From: Verrucomicrobiota bacterium
GTDB taxonomy: Bacteria; Verrucomicrobiota; Verrucomicrobiia; Limisphaerales; JACQFS01
Reading direction: 5' to 3'
Length of the DNA stretch: 41,378 bases
NCBI GenBank assembly: GCA_016199935.1
Contig: JACQFS010000031.1
Coordinates: 1 to 41,378, forward strand
Both the position numbers and the translations under genes were made by a program. This document shows positions 1 to 41,378 of this stretch, piece after piece. Every line of letters starts with the position of its first letter. Position 1 is the stretch's first letter. Below the pieces are notes generated by a model. That model ran no database searches. It was not told where the DNA came from and saw only the letters and a list, made by a program, of their open reading frames with translations.

Positions 1-1773
<1,773 letters not shown>

Positions 1774-1797
1774 ACCGCCGCGAATCGAAACTCACCC

Positions 1798-1835
1798 GGC
1801 CCGCCGCCTGCAAAGGCGGCGGGCCCTTTCGTTTT
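1798..1835 (+). terminator. Rho-independent terminator after rpoC
   Basis: A perfect 11-bp GC stem (1798-1808 with 1815-1825) closes a 6-nt TGCAAA loop and is followed by CTTTCGTTTT. It lies 24 nt past the rpoC stop and should separate the rpoBC transcript from the genes downstream. Confidence 0.9.
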
Positions 1836-1837
1836 GC

Positions 1838-1956
1838 CCAAGGTGGGCCGACCCGCCGGGTCGGCCGCGCCCGCGTTCAGCGGGGCGCCACGGGAGCCGT
1901 CGCCTGACGCTTCGCTCGACGACGGTGACGGCGCAGCGCGCCCATCCCTACCTTGG
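1838..1956. repeat. Possible twin-hairpin intergenic element
   Basis: A 119-nt stretch bounded by a 7-bp inverted repeat (CCAAGGT at 1838-1844, ACCTTGG at 1950-1956). Inside are a perfect 9-bp hairpin (1846-1854 with 1858-1866, 3-nt loop) and a perfect 5-bp hairpin (1930-1934 with 1938-1942). The layout, two hairpins within inverted ends, resembles the clearer elements at 5600-5664 and 36883-36982. No gene is supported between 1774 and 2118. Confidence 0.45.
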
Positions 1957-1991
1957 CGCGCCCAGAACGTGCTTGCCCGGCGCGGGCTTTG

Positions 1992-2019
1992 TTGCATGGC
2001 ATACGTTCTGCGCTACTAT
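1992..2019 (+). promoter_or_regulatory. Putative sigma-70-type promoter of the repeat protein gene
   Basis: TTGCAT at 1992-1997 and TACTAT at 2014-2019 with a 16-nt spacer, about 100 nt before the start at 2119. The match is only partial (4/6 in the -10 box). A small GCGTG-AAG-CACGC hairpin lies in the inferred leader. It is the best candidate in an otherwise featureless stretch. Confidence 0.3.
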
Positions 2020-2118
2020 CGAAGGCAGCGAAATTACCCATAAATCGCACCGGAGTTGCGCCGGGGGACGCGCGAAGCGTGAAGCACGCGCAAAGATACC
2101 GCGTATCCAACACACGAT

Positions 2119-5100
2119 ATGACCAGCAGGCTCAATCCGGAAAGGCCGCACGGTGGCGCGGGCCGGTTTGCGACGGCGCATTGGCCGCCCTTCCTCCTCG
2201 CCGTGCTGCTCGCGGTTGGCGCTTCCGCGCAACTCGCGCCCGACGGCGGCACCAACACGCTCGACGGCGTGACGAACACCGTAACCGGCAGCGTGACCGT
2301 GGGCACCAACGGCTCCTTCACGCTGCTGACCCTTACCAACGGCGCGCTGCTGACGAACACGCTGGAGGGCCAGATCGGCCTCAACGCCGGAGCGAACTCG
2401 AATACAATCTTGGTGAGCGGGGTGGGGACGAGTTGGATGCTCGGCACCAACGCGGCGGGTGTGGGGCTGTATGTCGGCAACGGGGGCGCGTTTAATGCGC
2501 TGACCATTTCCGACGGCGGCAACGTCACCAGTCGAGGAGGCCGGGTGGGGAACACCGCCAGTGCCGGCACGAATCTGGTTGTGATCACCGGTGGCGGGTC
2601 TTTGTGGAGCAACTGGGGGGAACTGGTCATTGGCTATGCCGGGGCGGGTAATCGCGTCGTCGTCTCCAACGGCGGCTCGGTGTTAACATTCGAGAACCGC
2701 GTGGGAGTGGCGGCGGCCGCGAACGACAATTCCATCCTGGTAACTGGCAGCGCGTCATCCTTCACGACCGTGAGTTATTTCAACTTGGGTGAAGGCTCGT
2801 CGGGAAACAATCTGCTGGTCAACGACGGCGCCACATTTGGCACCGTCAACAACAGCGTGCTGGGCTCGGCGGTCGGCGCGAATTCCAACTCGGCGGTGGT
2901 TTCGGATGCGTCCTCCTTCTGGAAGACCGGGAACCTTTTTTTGATCGGCAACCTCGGTTCATTCAACAGCGTGATGGTTAGCAACGGCGCCACCGTGTCC
3001 AATGCATCGGTGACCGCGCTCGGATACTTGGCGGGGGCGAACTCGAACCTCGCGATGGTGACCGGCGGCAATTCCCGCTGGATCAGCGCCGATGTGTTCA
3101 CCATCGGCAATCGTGGGTCCGCGAATCTGCTGTCAGTTAACCGAGGCGCCTCGGTAGTCAGCGGTTCCGGGCAGATCGGCGCGGTTGCCGGCGCGAATCA
3201 AAACTCTGCTGTGGTCACCGGCGCGGGTTCGACGTGGAGTAACAGCGGCATCCTGACCATCGGCAACGGCGGCTCGTTCAATCAACTCCTCGTCAGCAAC
3301 GGCGGCGCGGTTGTCGCAGGAGGGGCGATCAATTTGGGAAGCGCTGCGACGGGCACCAACAACAGCGTGGTGGCCGTGGGCGGCTCGCTCTCGAGCGCAG
3401 GCCTCACGTTGGGCGGCTCAGTCTCGCGTAACAACAGCGTCACGCTCATCTCCAACTCAACGTGGAATGTGGGCGGTGGCATCTTCACGTGGGGCAATGC
3501 CGGGGTCAACGACACGCTGAACATTGATGCCGCCTCGGCGCTTACCAACATCGGCGGGTTAACGCTCGACGAAAACGACACCCTGTTCTACATGACCAAC
3601 GACTTGGGTGGATACTCGCTCAACGGATTTACCACTAACCAGTTTCAATTCCGCCCCTCCGGCCTGAGTGTTGTGAACGTCGGCAACGGCGGCACCAACG
3701 TTCAGCTCCTCATCAGCAACTATACACTCTCCGATTCCATGGCTTGGATCGGTAACGGCGCGAGCGCCCGAAGCAATGCCGTGATTGTCACCGGCCCCGG
3801 CTCGGTCTGGAGCAACAGTAGCACCCTGATCATCGGCAACAGTAGTAATGGTGCTTCCGGCAATCAAATGATGGTGAGCGACGGGGCCAAGGTGTTCGAT
3901 ACCACCGGCACGCTTGGCAACCGCGCGAACTGCAGCAACAATTTCGCGCTCGTCACCGGCCCCGGCTCGGTGTGGAACAACGCCAGCGCGGTCACCATCG
4001 GCAGCGCCGGCTCGTTCAACCGGCTCGTCATCAGCAACAGCGGCGTGGTCCTCGGTGGCTCCGCGGGCACGGTGGGCGGCACATCGGCTGGCAACAGCAA
4101 CTCCGTGCTCGTGACAGGCGCCGGCTCGCTCTGGACGAACAACGGCACACTGATCATCGGCAACTCCGGCGCGTTCAACCAACTCGTCATCAGCAATGGC
4201 GGCGTGGTAGCCGCCTTCGGCGCGGCCACCATCGGCAATGCTGCTACCGGCGACACCAATCTCGTGCTCGTAACCGGCCCCGGCTCCGTGTGGAGCAACT
4301 TATCAGCACTGGGCATCGGCGCCGTCAGCGGTGCGTCGGCCAATCAACTGGTTGTGAGCAACGGCGGCACGGTGTTCAACACCACGGGCACGCTTGGCAC
4401 CGGCGCGAACTCCAGCAACAACCTTGCACTCGTTACGGGAACCGGTTCGGTGTGGAGCAATAACGGTCTGCTGACCATCGGCAACAGCGGCCCACGCACA
4501 CAACTTATCGTCAGCGACGGCGGCGCGGTCTTTGCCGCCGCGCTCACCATGGGAGCACTCCCAGGCACCGGCAGCAACCGCGTCACCATTGACGGCGGAA
4601 GCCTCATCGTCACCAATCCGGCAGGCACTGGGATTGCGCTCCTTAACCGCGGCACAAACGTTCTCAACAGCGGCTATTTTGAAACCGACCAGCTGGTTCT
4701 GACCAATAAAGTTAGCGGCGTCGCACACGGCGTTTTCGAGTTCAACGGCGGCACGCTCATCACCCGCGGCACGACGAACGCGAACGGGCTGCCGTTCACC
4801 GTCGGCAACGGCGCGAGTGCGGCCACGTTCCAGTTGCTCGGCGGCACTCACTCGTTCGCCAACGGCCTTGTGCTCGCCAGCAACTCACTACTCAAGGGCA
4901 ACGGCACCATCCTCGGCGCGGTCACCAACTTTGGCACCATCGCTCCCGGCAGTTCGCCTGGTGCGCTCACGATCAACGGCAGTCTCAGCCTGCGGAGCAG
5001 CGCGAACCTTTCCTTCGAGCTCGGCGGGCTGCTGGCCACCAACCAATACGACGTGCTCAGCGTCACCAACTTTGTCGAGCTGGCCGGCACGTTGAGCCTG

Positions 5101-5850: not shown

Positions 5851-6058
5851 TGAATTTCACCGTCCAGAAAAAATTCCGCTTGCGTCCTTCGGAAGAAATC
5901 TATTTCCTACGCGTCCCCGGAATCCGGACGGGCACTGCCGCTGATAAACCAGACGCGGCGGGGCGCGGACAACACGGGGACTTTTTGCAACGCACGTTTT
6001 TTGCCGAAGAATTTTCGGAAAACATGTTGCAGGGCAAAAGTCGTTTGTTAATCTGTCC

Positions 6059-31786: not shown

Positions 31787-33079
31787 TCACCGCAAATCCA
31801 CGCACACCAATTGTCCTTTGTCCCGCGCGTAGAACAAGCCGTCCGCCAGCGCGGCGTGGGCGCGGACGCCGCGGCCGAGGATTTGGGCACGGGCGGTTTC
31901 GTGGTAGCCGTCGGGCGAGGCGGCAGCGCGGATGAGTTCGCCGTTTTCCGTGAGCACCAGCAGCGAATCGCCCGCGAGCAGCACGTTCGCGCCGGCGAGG
32001 CCGGGTTTGCCCCAGCGCACTTGTCCGGTCCCCATTTCCACACAGCGCAGTTCCGTCCCGCCGATGTCGTGGCGCCCGTGCAGGCCGTAGAGCAAACCGT
32101 CGCGATGAACGGCCGTGGTGAATTGGAGCGAGAGATCTTCATCGCTCGCCCAGACTTTCGCGGGCCTCCCGTTTGTCATGCGCATCAGCAGTCCACCGAG
32201 GTCGTAGGCTGCGGAGATAAAGATATTGTCGCCCGCCACCGTCGGCAGCGCGCCGGTGACCGAGGCTTGGACGGGCGGGCGAAACGGCTGCTCGAACAGG
32301 ATTTTTCCATCCGCTGGGTCGAGGCCGATGAAATGGCCCCGCGTGAGCGCCAGAATGTGGCGCTTGCCGCCGAGCGTGGCCGCGACGGGCGAGGAGTAGC
32401 TTGGTTCGTCGGAGAAACTGTGCCACAAAATTTTTCCAGTCTCGCGGTCGAACGCCACGAGGCAGGCGGCCCCGCCGTTCGGAGCGCGGAGCTCTGGCTC
32501 CGCACGCGCGGAGCTGGAGCTCCGCGCTCCGCCCACGTCCACGATCACCGCTTTGCCCTCGACGAGTGGCGAGCACGCCAAGCCGAAGAATCCCTGCGGC
32601 GCGGCAAATTCCTTTTTGCAATCCACGCTCCAGATTTTCTTTCCGTCGGCGAGCGCGGTGCAGGTGAGCGCGCCATCCGCGCCGAACGTGAACACCTTGC
32701 CATCCGCCACCGTGGGCGTGCCGCGCGGGCCGGGGTCGAAGCCGAAGTTGTCGCGATACGCGGTGGGATACTCGAACTTCCAGAGCGGCTTCCCGTCTTT
32801 CGCGTCGAGGGCCTCGACGGTCTCCGCATCGCCGACGCGCGTGAAGAGGATGAGTTTGCCCTGCGCGACGACGGGTGCGGCGAAGCCCTGGCCGATTTTT
32901 TTCTGCCATAGCACGCGCGGACCGCCCTTGGGCCAAGCGGCGGCGAGGTCTTTGCCGGAGTAAATGCCGTCGCGATTCGGGCCGAGCAGTTGCGGCCAGT
33001 CGGCGGCGCGCAGGCAGAGGGCAGAGGTCAGAAGACAGAGGGCAGCGAGGAACGGCAGCGGCGCGCGGCGAAATTTCAT
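31787..33079 (-). CDS. Secreted PQQ-like beta-propeller protein with in-frame palindrome
   Basis: 430 residues from ATG 33079 (the frame is open to 33109). A signal peptide ends near LCLRAA, then DWPQLLGPNRDG and propeller blades (DAKDGKPLWKF, ALADGKKIWSV, DRETGKILWHS). It is a paralogue of the protein at 26120. Where the paralogue has VEVGGQPNSGVVAFD, this one has VDVGG, then an insert GARSSSSARAEPELRAP (residues ~184-200), then NGGAACLVAFD. The insert is encoded exactly by a 50-bp palindrome. It is probably the last gene of the minus-strand cluster starting at 35381. Role unknown; no catalytic residues seen. Confidence 0.87.
   Translation of the reverse strand: MKFRRAPLPFLAALCLLTSALCLRAADWPQLLGPNRDGIYSGKDLAAAWPKGGPRVLWQKKIGQGFAAPVVAQGKLILFTRVGDAETVEALDAKDGKPLWKFEYPTAYRDNFGFDPGPRGTPTVADGKVFTFGADGALTCTALADGKKIWSVDCKKEFAAPQGFFGLACSPLVEGKAVIVDVGGARSSSSARAEPELRAPNGGAACLVAFDRETGKILWHSFSDEPSYSSPVAATLGGKRHILALTRGHFIGLDPADGKILFEQPFRPPVQASVTGALPTVAGDNIFISAAYDLGGLLMRMTNGRPAKVWASDEDLSLQFTTAVHRDGLLYGLHGRHDIGGTELRCVEMGTGQVRWGKPGLAGANVLLAGDSLLVLTENGELIRAAASPDGYHETARAQILGRGVRAHAALADGLFYARDKGQLVCVDLR
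32481..32530. repeat. 50-bp palindrome inserted in a coding sequence
   Basis: Arms 32481-32503 and 32508-32530 pair over 23 bp with 2 mismatches around a 4-nt loop. Each half also contains its own hairpin (for example a 10-bp stem with CC loop on the minus strand). It lies inside the propeller gene, in frame, and is homologous to the element at 40178. Confidence 0.9.
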
Positions 33080-33130
33080 GGCGACTTTGTAAATCAGATT
33101 CGCGCGCAACGGAAGCGCGTCGCGCCGCGT

Positions 33131-36882: not shown

Positions 36883-36982
36883 CGGAGCGCGGCGTTTACG
36901 CCGCTTCATCGTTCGCAAGCGCACCGGCAACCGTTGCCCCCATGCCCTTTGGACATCGAAGCGGCGTAAACGCCGCGCTCCG
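36883..36982. repeat. Twin-hairpin inverted repeat, 25-bp perfect arms
   Basis: Arms 36883-36907 and 36958-36982 are perfect inverted copies of 25 bp around a 50-nt centre. Each arm has an internal 7-bp hairpin with a 2-nt loop (36889-36904 in the left arm). The outward ends read GGAGCGCGG, the same head as the elements at 32481 and (as GGAGCGCC) 40178. Intergenic, downstream of the VOC gene. Confidence 0.92.
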
Positions 36983-37125: not shown

Positions 37126-37459
37126 GATAAAGCTCTTTTGGCGACGAAAACAGCCTTTTTCACGCTGAAAACGGTCTTTCCGGCGACGGACAAAGGCTTG
37201 TCCGTGGCAAACAAGGTCTTGTCCGTGACGAACAAAGGCTTGTCCGCGACGAACAAAGGCTTGTCCGCGACGAACAAAGGCTTGTCCGCGACGAACAAGG
37301 TCTTGTCCGCGACGGACAAAACCTTGTCCGCGACGAACAAGGCTTGTCCGTGGCGGACAAGGTTTTGTCCGTGGCGGAAAAGGTCTTATCTGCGACGGAG
37401 AAAGCCTTCTCCGTGACGGACAAGATTGCTTCCGGGACGGGCAGAGTCCTGAAATGCGC
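37126..37459. repeat. Tandem array of sixteen 21-bp units with internal dyads
   Basis: Units start at 37126, 37146, 37167, 37188, 37209, 37230, 37251, 37272, 37293, 37314, 37335, 37355, 37376, 37397, 37418 and 37439; most are 21 nt, those at 37126 and 37335 are 20. The three central ones are identical (GAACAAAGGCTTGTCCGCGAC). Each core unit has a GGACAA..TTGTCC dyad. Translation in many frames gives meaningless 7-residue repeats because 21 is divisible by 3, and the 20-nt unit breaks the longest frame. 36983-37125 and 37460-37543 show nothing recognisable. Confidence 0.9.
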
Positions 37460-37543
37460 TCCTTCGGTGGTCGGCCGCCGGTCTGCGCTTGCCGAAAATC
37501 CATTTCCCTTCATGCTCCGCGCTCAACTGATTTCACATTGCCT

Positions 37544-40500
37544 ATGCGTTCCGCCCTCAAGCTTCTCCTTCCGGCTTTCCTGAGTTCCTGCTTCCTCCGC
37601 CCCGCACGCGCGCCGTTTCCCGAAGCTCACCGCCACGACGGCCCTCACCCCAGCCCTCTCCCGGTGGGAGAGGGAGCCTCGTCCTCAGCGCGCCGCCGTC
37701 CGGGTGCGTCCGGTATGGCCGCGCGCTGGATGCGTTTCCCCCTCTCCCACCTGGAGAGGGCAGGGGTGAGGGCCGGCTTCGCGATGGTCCTCCTCCTCGC
37801 GCTGCTCTTGCTGAACACTGAACACTGCCTGCTGAATACTTCCGCCTTCGCCGCGGAGGCGAAGCCCGCGCCCTTCGAGATGAAGGAGGGCGATCGCGTG
37901 GTGTTCCTCGGCGACACGTTCATCGAGCGCGAGCAGCATTACGGGTGGATCGAGCTGATGCTCACCACGCGCTTCCCCGAACGAAACGTCACCTTTCGCA
38001 ATCTGGGTTGGAGTGCCGACACGCCGGCGGGGGATTCGCGCTTCGGCCTGAGCCTGCTGCAAGCGGGGCGCGAGCCGGCGGACGAGGGCTGGAAGCAACT
38101 GGTCAAGCAGCTCGAGGACGCGAAGCCCACGGTGGTGTTTGTCGGCTACGGGATGGCGAGTTCGTTCGACGGCGAGGCGGGCCTGCCCAAGTTCAAGGCC
38201 GACTACAACCGCCTGCTCGACACCATCGAGAAGATTTCGCCGGGGGTGAGGTTTGTGTTGATGGCAACGAGAGGTGCAGAGCCAAACATGGTTTTTTGGA
38301 ACGACTACACCGAGTATAACGAACGTAATCGAATCTCAAAACTTTACGACGGCGCTATCGCCAGCATTTCAGAAAAGAGACAAGTTCGCTTCGTCACCTT
38401 CGTAAACGAAATGATGTCGATTCCATTCAATCCTCGGACCGACAACGGTATTCATCTGAACTCGGAGGGCTACACATGGACGGCGGCAACAATGAGGCGA
38501 GAATTGTTTACCGGCACAACAGTTGTCAGACCGGCGACTCCTGAAGAAGAAGCCCTCCGCGCCGCCATCCTCCGCAAGAACGAATGGTTCTTCCACCGTT
38601 CGCGCCCGGCCAACATGGCTTACATCTTCGGCTTCCGGAAACGCGAGCAGGGCCAGAACGCCGTCGAGATTCCCAAGTTCGACGAGTTCATCGCCGCCGA
38701 GGAGAAACGCATCGCGCTGCTCCGTTCGCTCAAGCCCGGCGTGACCGTGCCGGAGGTGAAGACGCACATCGGCAACCTCACCGCCAAGCACACCGAGCAG
38801 CCGCACCCGGACTTCGAGGTGGCCGACGGTTTCGAGGTCACGCTCTGGGCCGAGAATCCGCTCCTCAACAAACCCATCCAGATGAACTTCGATCCGCAGG
38901 GCCGCCTCTGGGTCGCCAGCTCGGAAGTTTATCCGCAGATCGAACCCGGCCAGGCCGCCACGGACAAAATCATCGTGCTCGAAGACACGAAGGGCGCCGG
39001 CCACGCCGACAAGGCCACGGTGTTCGCGGAAGGGTTGCTCATTCCCACCGGCATCGAGCCGGGCGATGGCGGGTGTTACGTTGCGCAGAGCACGGAGCTG
39101 TTGCATTTCAAGGACACCGACGGCGACGGCAAGGCGGACGTGCGGCGCATCGTGTTGAGCGGTTTCGGCACCGAGGACACGCATCACAATTTGCACACGC
39201 TGCGCTGGGGCTTCGACGGGCGGCTGTATATGAACCAGTCCGTCTATACGCGCACGGACACCGAGACGCCGCATGGCGTGGTGCGGTTGAAGGCGGGCGG
39301 GACGTTCCGCTTCGATCCGCGCGATCAGAAGATGGAAATCCTCTACCGCGGCTGGGTCAACGCGTGGGGGCACCAGTTCGATGATTACGGGCAGTCGTTC
39401 GTGACCGACGGCGCGGGTGGGCAGGGGATCAACTGGGCCGTGCCCGGCGCGACCTACTTCACGCTCGCGCCTGCGCGGCGGATGTTGCAGAGCATCAGCC
39501 CGGGGAACTATCCGAAATTCACGAGCATCGAGATCATCCGCAGCCAGCATTTTCCCGACGACTGGCAGGGCGACATCATCACGTGCGACTTCCGCGCGCA
39601 TCGCGTGGTGCACTTCAAGGTGTCCGATCAGGGCGCCGGTTACGTGACGAAGGAAATGCCCGACCTGTTGCGCACGACGGACGCGACCTTCCGCCCGCTC
39701 GACGTGAAGCTCGGCCCCGACGGCGCGCTGTATCTCGCCGACTGGAGCAACCCGATCATCCAGCACGGCGAAGTGGATTTCCGCGACCCGCGCCGCGACA
39801 AGGAACATGGACGCATCTGGCGCATCAGCGCGAAGGGGCGTCCGCTGGTGAAGAAGGTGGACTTCGCGAAGCTCAACAACACGGAGCTGCTCGACAAGCT
39901 CGTCACGCCAAATAGCTACGAACACGAACGCGCCAAGCGCGTGCTCGTGGAACGCGGCGCGGACAAGGTCGCGAAAGACCTCACCGCGTGGACGAAGAAA
40001 CAGAAGGATGAGAAGGCGCTGCTCAATGCGCTGTGGATGTATGAATCCTTCAACCAGCCGCAGTCCGCGTTGCTGAGTCAGCTCATCGTCGCGAAGGACG
40101 CGCGGATTCGCGCCGCGGCGATTCGGGTGCTGGCGAATCAAGCGGACCAGAAGCCCGCCGGACCGCGCCGCGCCGCCGGAGCGCCGAACTCCAGTTCGGC
40201 GCGTTACGCGGCAGCCATCCAACGCGTCGATCAGGAGTTCGGCGCTTGGAAATCCGCCGTCGCCCTCGCTCAACTCACCAATCTCGTGGACCCGTTCCTC
40301 GACTACGCGCTCTGGCTAACAATCAACGAACTCGCCGAGCCGTGGATTGCAGCGCTGAAATCCGGCGCGTGGAAATTCGAGGGCCGCGAGAACCAGCTCG
40401 AGTTCGGCCTCAAGGCCATCGAGCCTGCGCTCGCGAGCGAAGTCCTCGGCCAACTCGTCGGCAACAAAATCATCCCGCGCGACGGCTCCGGCCCGTGGAT

Positions 40501-41378
40501 CGAACTCATCGGCTCCGCCGGCACGGCGAAGGAACTGCGCCAGATGTTCGACCAGTTGCTCAAGGGCGAGTTCGTCGAGCCCGCCTCGCTCCGTGTTTTC
40601 GCCGCCCTCGGCGATGCCACGCGCCTGCGCGGCGTGAAGCCCGACGGCGAACTCGCGACCTTCGGCCCGATGCTCAAGGCGAACAACGAACGCGTCCGCA
40701 TCGCCGCGCTGCAACTCGCCGGCACGTGGAAACTCGCCCGGTTCACTCCGCAAATGATTCAGGCCGCCGGCGACGCGAAGACCTCGCCCGCCGTGCGCGC
40801 CGCCGCGTTGACCGCGCTCCGCGACATCGGCGGGCCGGGCGTCGTGAAGGATTTGCAGAAGCTCGCGGCCGAAACGCAGTCGCCGGAAATCCGCCGCGAG
40901 ACGGTCACCACGCTCGCCGGCTTGAATTTCCAAGCCGCCCTCCCCGCCGTCATCACAACGCTCAAGGCCACGACGAACGAGGCCGAGGCCGCGACGCTCT
41001 GGCGCGCGTTGCTCGGCATCCGCGGCGCGGGCGCGAAGCTCGCGGCGGAATTACCCAAGTCGGGAATCTCCGCCGACACCGCGAAGGCCGGCCTGCGTCC
41101 CGCGCGCGAGGGCAATCAGAACCAGGCGCTCGTGCAGGTGCTCATGCAGCTCGCCGGGTTGACCGTCTCCGACAAGCAACTCTCGCCCGCCGAACTCCAG
41201 AAGCTCGCCGCCGAAGCCCTCGCGAAGGGCGACGCCGCGCGCGGCGAACGCATTTACCGCCGCGCCGAACTCGCGTGCATGACGTGCCACGCCATCGGCG
41301 GCGCCGGCGGCAAGGTCGGCCCCGACATGACGAGCATCGGCGCGAGCGCGCCGGCGGATTACCTCGTCGAGTCGCTGC
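37544..41378 (+). CDS. PVC-type SGNH-propeller-cytochrome c fusion protein (partial)
   Basis: Open from ATG 37544 to the window end (1278 codons, no stop), so it is truncated. Order: signal-like MRSALKLLLPAFLSSCFL; a repeat-derived stretch (~33-77); a second hydrophobic segment from Met 81 (MVLLLALLLL ... TSAFAAEA); an SGNH-like domain from ~117 in which block I is GDT (123-125) instead of GDS, so the nucleophile is not serine; a beta-propeller of the 'putative membrane-bound dehydrogenase' type (~427-770, e.g. DPQGRLWVASS, DTDGDGKADV, GPDGALYLADW); HEAT-like repeats (~790-1190); and a heme c motif CMTCH at 1245-1249, as in Planctomycete cytochrome domains. Starting at ATG 37784 (codon 81) is a real alternative. 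Role inferred: periplasmic electron-transfer or sugar-oxidation component. Confidence 0.85.
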   Translation, partial: MRSALKLLLPAFLSSCFLRPARAPFPEAHRHDGPHPSPLPVGEGASSSARRRPGASGMAARWMRFPLSHLERAGVRAGFAMVLLLALLLLNTEHCLLNTSAFAAEAKPAPFEMKEGDRVVFLGDTFIEREQHYGWIELMLTTRFPERNVTFRNLGWSADTPAGDSRFGLSLLQAGREPADEGWKQLVKQLEDAKPTVVFVGYGMASSFDGEAGLPKFKADYNRLLDTIEKISPGVRFVLMATRGAEPNMVFWNDYTEYNERNRISKLYDGAIASISEKRQVRFVTFVNEMMSIPFNPRTDNGIHLNSEGYTWTAATMRRELFTGTTVVRPATPEEEALRAAILRKNEWFFHRSRPANMAYIFGFRKREQGQNAVEIPKFDEFIAAEEKRIALLRSLKPGVTVPEVKTHIGNLTAKHTEQPHPDFEVADGFEVTLWAENPLLNKPIQMNFDPQGRLWVASSEVYPQIEPGQAATDKIIVLEDTKGAGHADKATVFAEGLLIPTGIEPGDGGCYVAQSTELLHFKDTDGDGKADVRRIVLSGFGTEDTHHNLHTLRWGFDGRLYMNQSVYTRTDTETPHGVVRLKAGGTFRFDPRDQKMEILYRGWVNAWGHQFDDYGQSFVTDGAGGQGINWAVPGATYFTLAPARRMLQSISPGNYPKFTSIEIIRSQHFPDDWQGDIITCDFRAHRVVHFKVSDQGAGYVTKEMPDLLRTTDATFRPLDVKLGPDGALYLADWSNPIIQHGEVDFRDPRRDKEHGRIWRISAKGRPLVKKVDFAKLNNTELLDKLVTPNSYEHERAKRVLVERGADKVAKDLTAWTKKQKDEKALLNALWMYESFNQPQSALLSQLIVAKDARIRAAAIRVLANQADQKPAGPRRAAGAPNSSSARYAAAIQRVDQEFGAWKSAVALAQLTNLVDPFLDYALWLTINELAEPWIAALKSGAWKFEGRENQLEFGLKAIEPALASEVLGQLVGNKIIPRDGSGPWIELIGSAGTAKELRQMFDQLLKGEFVEPASLRVFAALGDATRLRGVKPDGELATFGPMLKANNERVRIAALQLAGTWKLARFTPQMIQAAGDAKTSPAVRAAALTALRDIGGPGVVKDLQKLAAETQSPEIRRETVTTLAGLNFQAALPAVITTLKATTNEAEAATLWRALLGIRGAGAKLAAELPKSGISADTAKAGLRPAREGNQNQALVQVLMQLAGLTVSDKQLSPAELQKLAAEALAKGDAARGERIYRRAELACMTCHAIGGAGGKVGPDMTSIGASAPADYLVESL
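37640..37774. repeat. Palindromic repeat in the N-terminal coding region
   Basis: Arms 37640-37662 and 37753-37774 pair over 22 bp with 1 mismatch. Each side also has its own hairpin (9-bp stem 37654-37662 with 37666-37674; 8-bp stem 37740-37747 with 37753-37760). It reads in frame as PHPSPLPVGEG-type peptide, a style familiar from repeat-derived peptides. It lies between two candidate signal peptides of the last gene. Confidence 0.88.
40178..40246. repeat. Palindromic element inside the last gene
   Basis: A perfect 10-bp hairpin with CC loop (40181-40190 with 40193-40202), and a 13-bp inverted repeat between 40180-40192 and 40234-40246. In frame, it encodes GAPNSSSAR at codon 879 onward, between two HEAT-like repeats. 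Homologous to the element at 32481-32530. Confidence 0.82.

Follow-up and report, generated by a model that had tools for sequence, protein, structure and literature searches.

Two in-frame palindromes in a 41,378-nt stretch of a Verrucomicrobiota genome (contig JACQFS010000031.1, here called the window) very probably belong to copies of a GGAG-tagged REPIN: by analogy with known systems, a non-autonomous single-strand mobile element of two inverted hairpins, which would be mobilised by a RAYT from a GGA-tag branch of its own. Because the elements are REPIN-like, yet carry a foot other than GT[AG]G and have no cognate RAYT in the assembly, they are classed as a tag variant of the known REPIN/RAYT systems; relative to the GT[AG]G described for these (PMC3733652, PMC6006769), GGAG is a new tag.

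Copy 1 lies on the reverse strand, with its left REP unit at 32504-32530 (GGAGCGCGGAGCTCCAGCTCCGCGCGT, read from 32530 to 32504), and copy 2 on the forward strand, with its left unit at 40178-40204 (GGAGCGCCGAACTCCAGTTCGGCGCGT). Both units combine the tag GGAG with a 10-bp hairpin that follows one pairing rule (i + j = 29, G4 to T13 with A16 to C25) and closes on a CC loop. As the sequence-only reading had it, the two 27-nt units are identical at 23 positions and the four differences form two exact compensatory pairs, G8-C21 to C8-G21 and G11-C18 to A11-T18, so the stem is perfect in both; the codon phase is also the same, giving GARSSSSAR in the ORF at 31787-33109 (-) and GAPNSSSAR in that at 37454-41377 (+), that is, the common G-A-x-x-S-S-S-A-R. 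Both units are left halves of inverted dimers. In copy 1 (whole REPIN 32481-32530, 50 bp) the right arm at 32481-32507 is intact, while in copy 2 (whole REPIN 40178-40246, 69 bp) it is decayed, ending at 40246, though still recognisable against intact 69-bp relatives such as that at 5915-5983 of locus L074. A third GGAG-tagged inverted dimer in the window, at 36884-36981 (no strand assigned; GGAGCGCGGCGTTTACGCCGCTTCA) and bordered on at least one side by sequence not called as coding, has a hairpin of another family; it represents one of at least three other hairpin families with the tag GGAGCGC. Rfam gave no matches to the window.

The two copies are members of one dispersed repeat family. 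The 5′ half of the unit, GGAGCGCN5TCC, is found at 160 sites (82 + 78) in the 5.03-Mb assembly compared with 34 (19 + 15) for a reversed-pattern control, so the resemblance between units is not due to chance, and the proposal of a single element in two genes stands. For the stem test we used own-genome loci only (within 1.35 Mb, partly picked around known matches), with sites picked by the 5′ half alone and the 3′ half examined afterward. A perfect 5-bp variable stem was present in 57 of the 99 units. When the 3′ halves were shuffled 5000 times, such units averaged 11.8 and never exceeded 22. The 99 sites include 11 distinct perfect variable stems. In an alignment of 49 distinct units the covariation score is 0.293, compared with 0.149 after shuffling (0/500 shuffles as high), and sliding the partner by one column reduces pairing from 91% to 26-32%; these pair percentages lean upward, since 8 of the 57 distinct units were omitted, judged by eye not to be family-1-like, and the unselected stem test is that on the 99 sites picked by their 5′ half. 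The structure itself is thus conserved, and the expectation of further genomic copies with stems kept paired is borne out.

The dimer architecture is equally regular: 35 of the 36 unit pairs lying within 150 bp are inverted with their tags outward, with lengths mostly of 58-80 bp. The variable stems of the two arms are unlike in 26 of the 35 inverted dimers, and at the positions where the arms of these 26 differ, an arm keeps its own internal pair in 55 of 74 cases. As the arms differ while each is mostly self-paired, what selection appears to maintain is the individual single-stranded hairpin and not an extended inverted repeat. In 64 of 71 units a C precedes the tag, so no concealed GTAG or GTGG overlaps the GGAG. 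The elements therefore lack the GT[AG]G at the hairpin foot that marks the canonical GTAG REP superfamily, and correspond to REPINs in the broad sense, with many dispersed hairpin copies, inverted pairing, compensatory stem change and, for copy 1, an empty site.

This empty site is in the gene at 31787-33109 (-), coding for a BamB-like PQQ_2 β-propeller protein, in which the insertion encodes ARSSSSARAEPELRAPN. The 17-residue stretch is absent from 19/19 orthologues identified by protein search; cutting 51 bp from the gene leaves an open frame of orthologue length, VDVGNGGAACLVAFD, whereas cutting 50 bp does not. Copy 1 is a clean 51-bp in-frame insertion, a net gain of 51 bp for a 50-bp element, with no target-site duplication at this one site. 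The gene hosting copy 2 (37454-41377 (+), leaving the window) encodes a GDSL lipase, DUF7133, HEAT and cytochrome c-like protein. Here no empty site was found: the orthologues covering the site hold a conserved HEAT helix and are similar in total length, and copy 2 is an insertion with loss or a replacement, not a clean insertion. The predicted empty sites were, in other words, present for copy 1 but not for copy 2. Directly upstream of the copy 2 gene, at 37173-37424, a 21-bp unit (GCGACGAACAAAGGCTTGTCC) is repeated in tandem in 11.5 copies.

Elsewhere in the genome, too, dimers keep the frame inside genes whose Pfam domains are clear, among them those for NAD-dependent DNA ligase, UvrA, indole-glycerol-phosphate synthase, CstA and a subunit of a proton-antiporter-type NADH:quinone oxidoreductase. 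The excess of in-frame copies that had been anticipated is reversed: by a home-made coding score, 15/43 dimers are in frame as against 63% of random segments (p = 0.0004), meaning that coding sequence is avoided. Where same-strand coding sequence lies on both sides, however, the frame is kept in 15 of 17 dimers. Most probably the host genes tolerate the in-frame copies as passengers, and selection purges insertions that break the frame. In family 1 the phase that gives GA-x-x-SSSAR is used by 9/13 copies (p = 0.009; post hoc, with phases read by eye). We also considered that GGAG might be favoured over GTAG for lacking the TAG stop; this was unsupported, with 15/43 GGAG and 3/12 GTAG dimers in frame (p = 0.73). 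The orthologue site of the UvrA copy (L067) varies in length. In the uvrA linkers of relatives (L323-L329), the position of the own-genome REPIN is length-variable, and some relatives carry other repeat-like or low-complexity insertions.

The RAYT genes of the order form two branches, one flanked by GTAG/GTGG hairpins and the other by GGAG (less often GGAC or GGAA) hairpins. The REP/RAYT analogy drawn from the two palindromes alone proved apt: in many genomes GGAG dimers lie beside RAYT genes of this separate branch, often on both sides, and they do so in G002, to which both host genes point as the closest relative. On its contig C33 a RAYT of the GGAG branch is preceded by GGAGCGCCGATTTCCAAATCGGCG and followed by another GGAG hairpin, and the RAYT gene itself holds an in-frame REPIN; G002 is thus a relative whose RAYT is flanked by the same repeat type; the tag class extends across the order and the phylum. 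REPs inserted with the frame kept inside RAYT genes are known from subclass 2.4 (PMC6006769). The RAYT gene on C33 (L303, 88-927) also has an in-frame TGA at 427-429, and its REPIN, at about 659-740, falls between the HuH and W-Q motifs. In the genome under study, the expected Y1_Tnp genes are present, four in number, but none is a partner. The one on contig C16, the only REP-flanked gene among them, is a RAYT whose flanking dimers are of the GTAG type; a GGAG-branch RAYT, and with it a same-genome RAYT flanked by GGAG repeats, is absent from this draft of 260 contigs. For that reason we infer the partner RAYT from relatives; it has presumably been lost from the genome or is missing from the assembly.

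Second-branch members are named in the records, which are mostly MAGs, as Acidobacteriota, Chloroflexota, Planctomycetota, Pseudomonadota, Verrucomicrobiota and others. Among 103 distinct typed RAYTs, the flanks are GGAG in 59, GGAA in 10, GGAC in 8 and GT[AG]G in 26, with a GGAG call reached by 12 of 500 random own-genome segments. On the tree of these 103, nearly half of whose inner branches are weakly supported, the tag changes between GT and GG 3 times, compared with a shuffled mean of 23. GGAG-branch proteins score above the NCBIfam cut-off as REP-associated tyrosine transposase, and the branch profile matches TnpA_REP (4er8) with E = 2.5e-11. Genome-wide excess of the motif is loosely tied to a close GGAG-branch RAYT (12/27 vs. 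27/169 genomes, p = 0.0015, tallied by hand). Several other arrangements were seen. A RAYT in G089:C44 (L184/L195) has GGAC-tagged hairpin flanks, GGACCGCGAACCGTCCCGGTTCGC, which resemble a GGAG hairpin family of the own genome (S=30 class) but have another tag base. The ORF at 985-3306 (-) of L190 (G084:C263:1158-4757) contains, in frame, a RAYT domain with GTAG hairpins on both sides; the ORF scores as a type IIG restriction-methyltransferase/N6_Mtase, and the parts flanking the RAYT match PADLOC REase_MTase_IIG. Many further RAYT matches from the order are parts of open frames some 1000-1500 aa long.

Aligning the branch profile with E. coli TnpA_REP (4er8) places the W-Q-x4-D-x motif at W94, Q95, E100, H101 and R104 (numbered by counting along the printed alignment), which are published guide-contact residues (PMC6006769). 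Two of these vary with the tag. Residue 101 is histidine in 24/26 GT-tagged RAYTs and in 0/77 GG-tagged ones, where it is nearly always arginine or threonine; residue 95 is glutamine in 65/85 RAYTs with G at tag position 4 and in 0/18 without, being histidine mainly with C, and methionine or glutamate with A. Two RAYTs placed apart from their tag class agree: R101 is found in L318, a GGAG-tagged RAYT whose long branch falls outside the GG branch, and H101 in L322, which carries a GTAG tag (two units on one side) but sits within the GG branch. Against a code stand L149 and L273, and the occasional arginine at position 101 in GT[AG]G subclasses (PMC6006769). Independent-pairs contrasts were too few in number: for base 2 and residue 101, two in the same direction, none opposite and one without difference; for base 4 and residue 95, a mean of 3.5 in the same direction and none opposite (median p = 0.125). 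Residues 101 and 95 are therefore a possible recognition code for the tag, a lead that does not yet reach phylogenetic significance. The wider proposal is tentative, and we would put it at somewhat under even confidence: that the GGA[G/C/A] tags mark a large unrecognised REP superfamily spread over many phyla, with its own RAYT branch and with guide-contact residues 101 (H for T2; R or T for G2) and 95 (Q for G4; mainly H for C4; M or E for A4) as specificity code.

The RAYT on C16 might itself move the hairpins in trans, with GGAG merely a degenerate GTAG tag. No other RAYT in the assembly is REP-flanked, the GTAG hairpins around it (GTAGCGCAGATTGCCAATCTGC) are similar to family 1, and tag variants (GYAG/GTRG/GTGG) have been reported by Di Nocera et al. 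(PMC3733652). The GTAG units around it are nevertheless of a different family, and GGAG dimers accompany a RAYT branch of their own in many genomes; we consider mobilisation by the C16 RAYT unlikely. Less likely still, with only a very slight chance, is a MITE moved by a DDE transposase, with hairpins present by chance in its terminal inverted repeats: the inverted-repeat ends would fit, as would the dispersal in multiple copies, but a terminal inverted repeat would not require that usually dissimilar arms each mostly keep their own hairpin, the empty site of copy 1 shows 51 bp for a 50-bp element without target duplication, and Y1 transposases with same-tag flanks exist.

That real genes carry both copies in frame would also fit low-complexity Ser/Ala linkers of ordinary protein sequence that fold by chance. 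This is scarcely credible: the same DNA occurs outside coding sequence as well and in every codon phase, and the copy 1 empty site together with the stem test, in which the stems covary, refutes it. A GGAG-tagged REPIN remains the best explanation. The points against it are the assembly without a GGAG-branch RAYT, the unclean copy 2, the 1.35 Mb in part selected around matches, the loose tie between motif excess and a close GGAG-branch RAYT, and the GT[AG]G carried by published RAYT-associated REPs (PMC3733652, PMC6006769).

By analogy with TnpA_REP, a GGA-tag-branch RAYT, an HuH/Y1 tyrosine transposase, would bind the single-stranded DNA of each hairpin, take the GGAG tag as its guide, cleave next to the tag and join the excised strand into another site, with residues 95 and 101 perhaps setting the tag specificity. 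In GTAG elements, the CT cleavage site is assigned to guide bases 3 and 4 (PMC8266576); as GGAG retains AG at these bases, CT cleavage is predicted for it as well.

The nearest known systems are the GTAG REPs/REPINs with their RAYT (TnpA_REP), including GTAG-20 of the verrucomicrobium Opitutus terrae (PMC3733652, PMC6006769). These share the tetranucleotide at the 5′ foot of a short hairpin, the inverted dimers, the high copy number, the RAYT gene flanked by its own dimers, and the mostly extragenic location with some copies in frame within genes, among them uvrA and DNA ligase; the UvrA and DNA ligase of O. terrae are likewise REP-bearing (PMC3733652). Different here are the tag, GGAG (GGAC/GGAA in relatives) rather than GT[AG]G, the C before it in 90% of units, and the separate RAYT branch. 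Rickettsia palindromic elements and CGTC-tagged REPs (PMC3733652) are also palindromic and sometimes in frame in genes, but the suggested kinship is not supported, as the GGAG elements lack the CGTC tag; they also have an associated RAYT branch, while CGTC repeats were reported without a dedicated transposase (PMC3733652). TnpA_Y1 subclass 2.6 (mostly Bacteroidetes) and class 3 (CnGA foot) of Quentin et al. 2018 (PMC6006769) are RAYT-like genes flanked by non-GT[AG]G structures; going by the published descriptions, those structures are weaker, in contrast with the strong GGA[GCA] hairpins here.

In the literature compared, RAYT-associated REPs with a defined strong hairpin carry GT[AG]G (PMC3733652, PMC6006769), and the published automatic search requires it (PMC6006769), so that a GGAG branch would be missed. 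Natural tag variants beside their own transposases make the guide reading of TnpA_REP directly testable, because sequences show which changes of residue and tag go together. For the study of how proteins accommodate mobile DNA, the copies that keep the frame in uvrA, ligA, trpC, cstA and other genes provide a set of cases.
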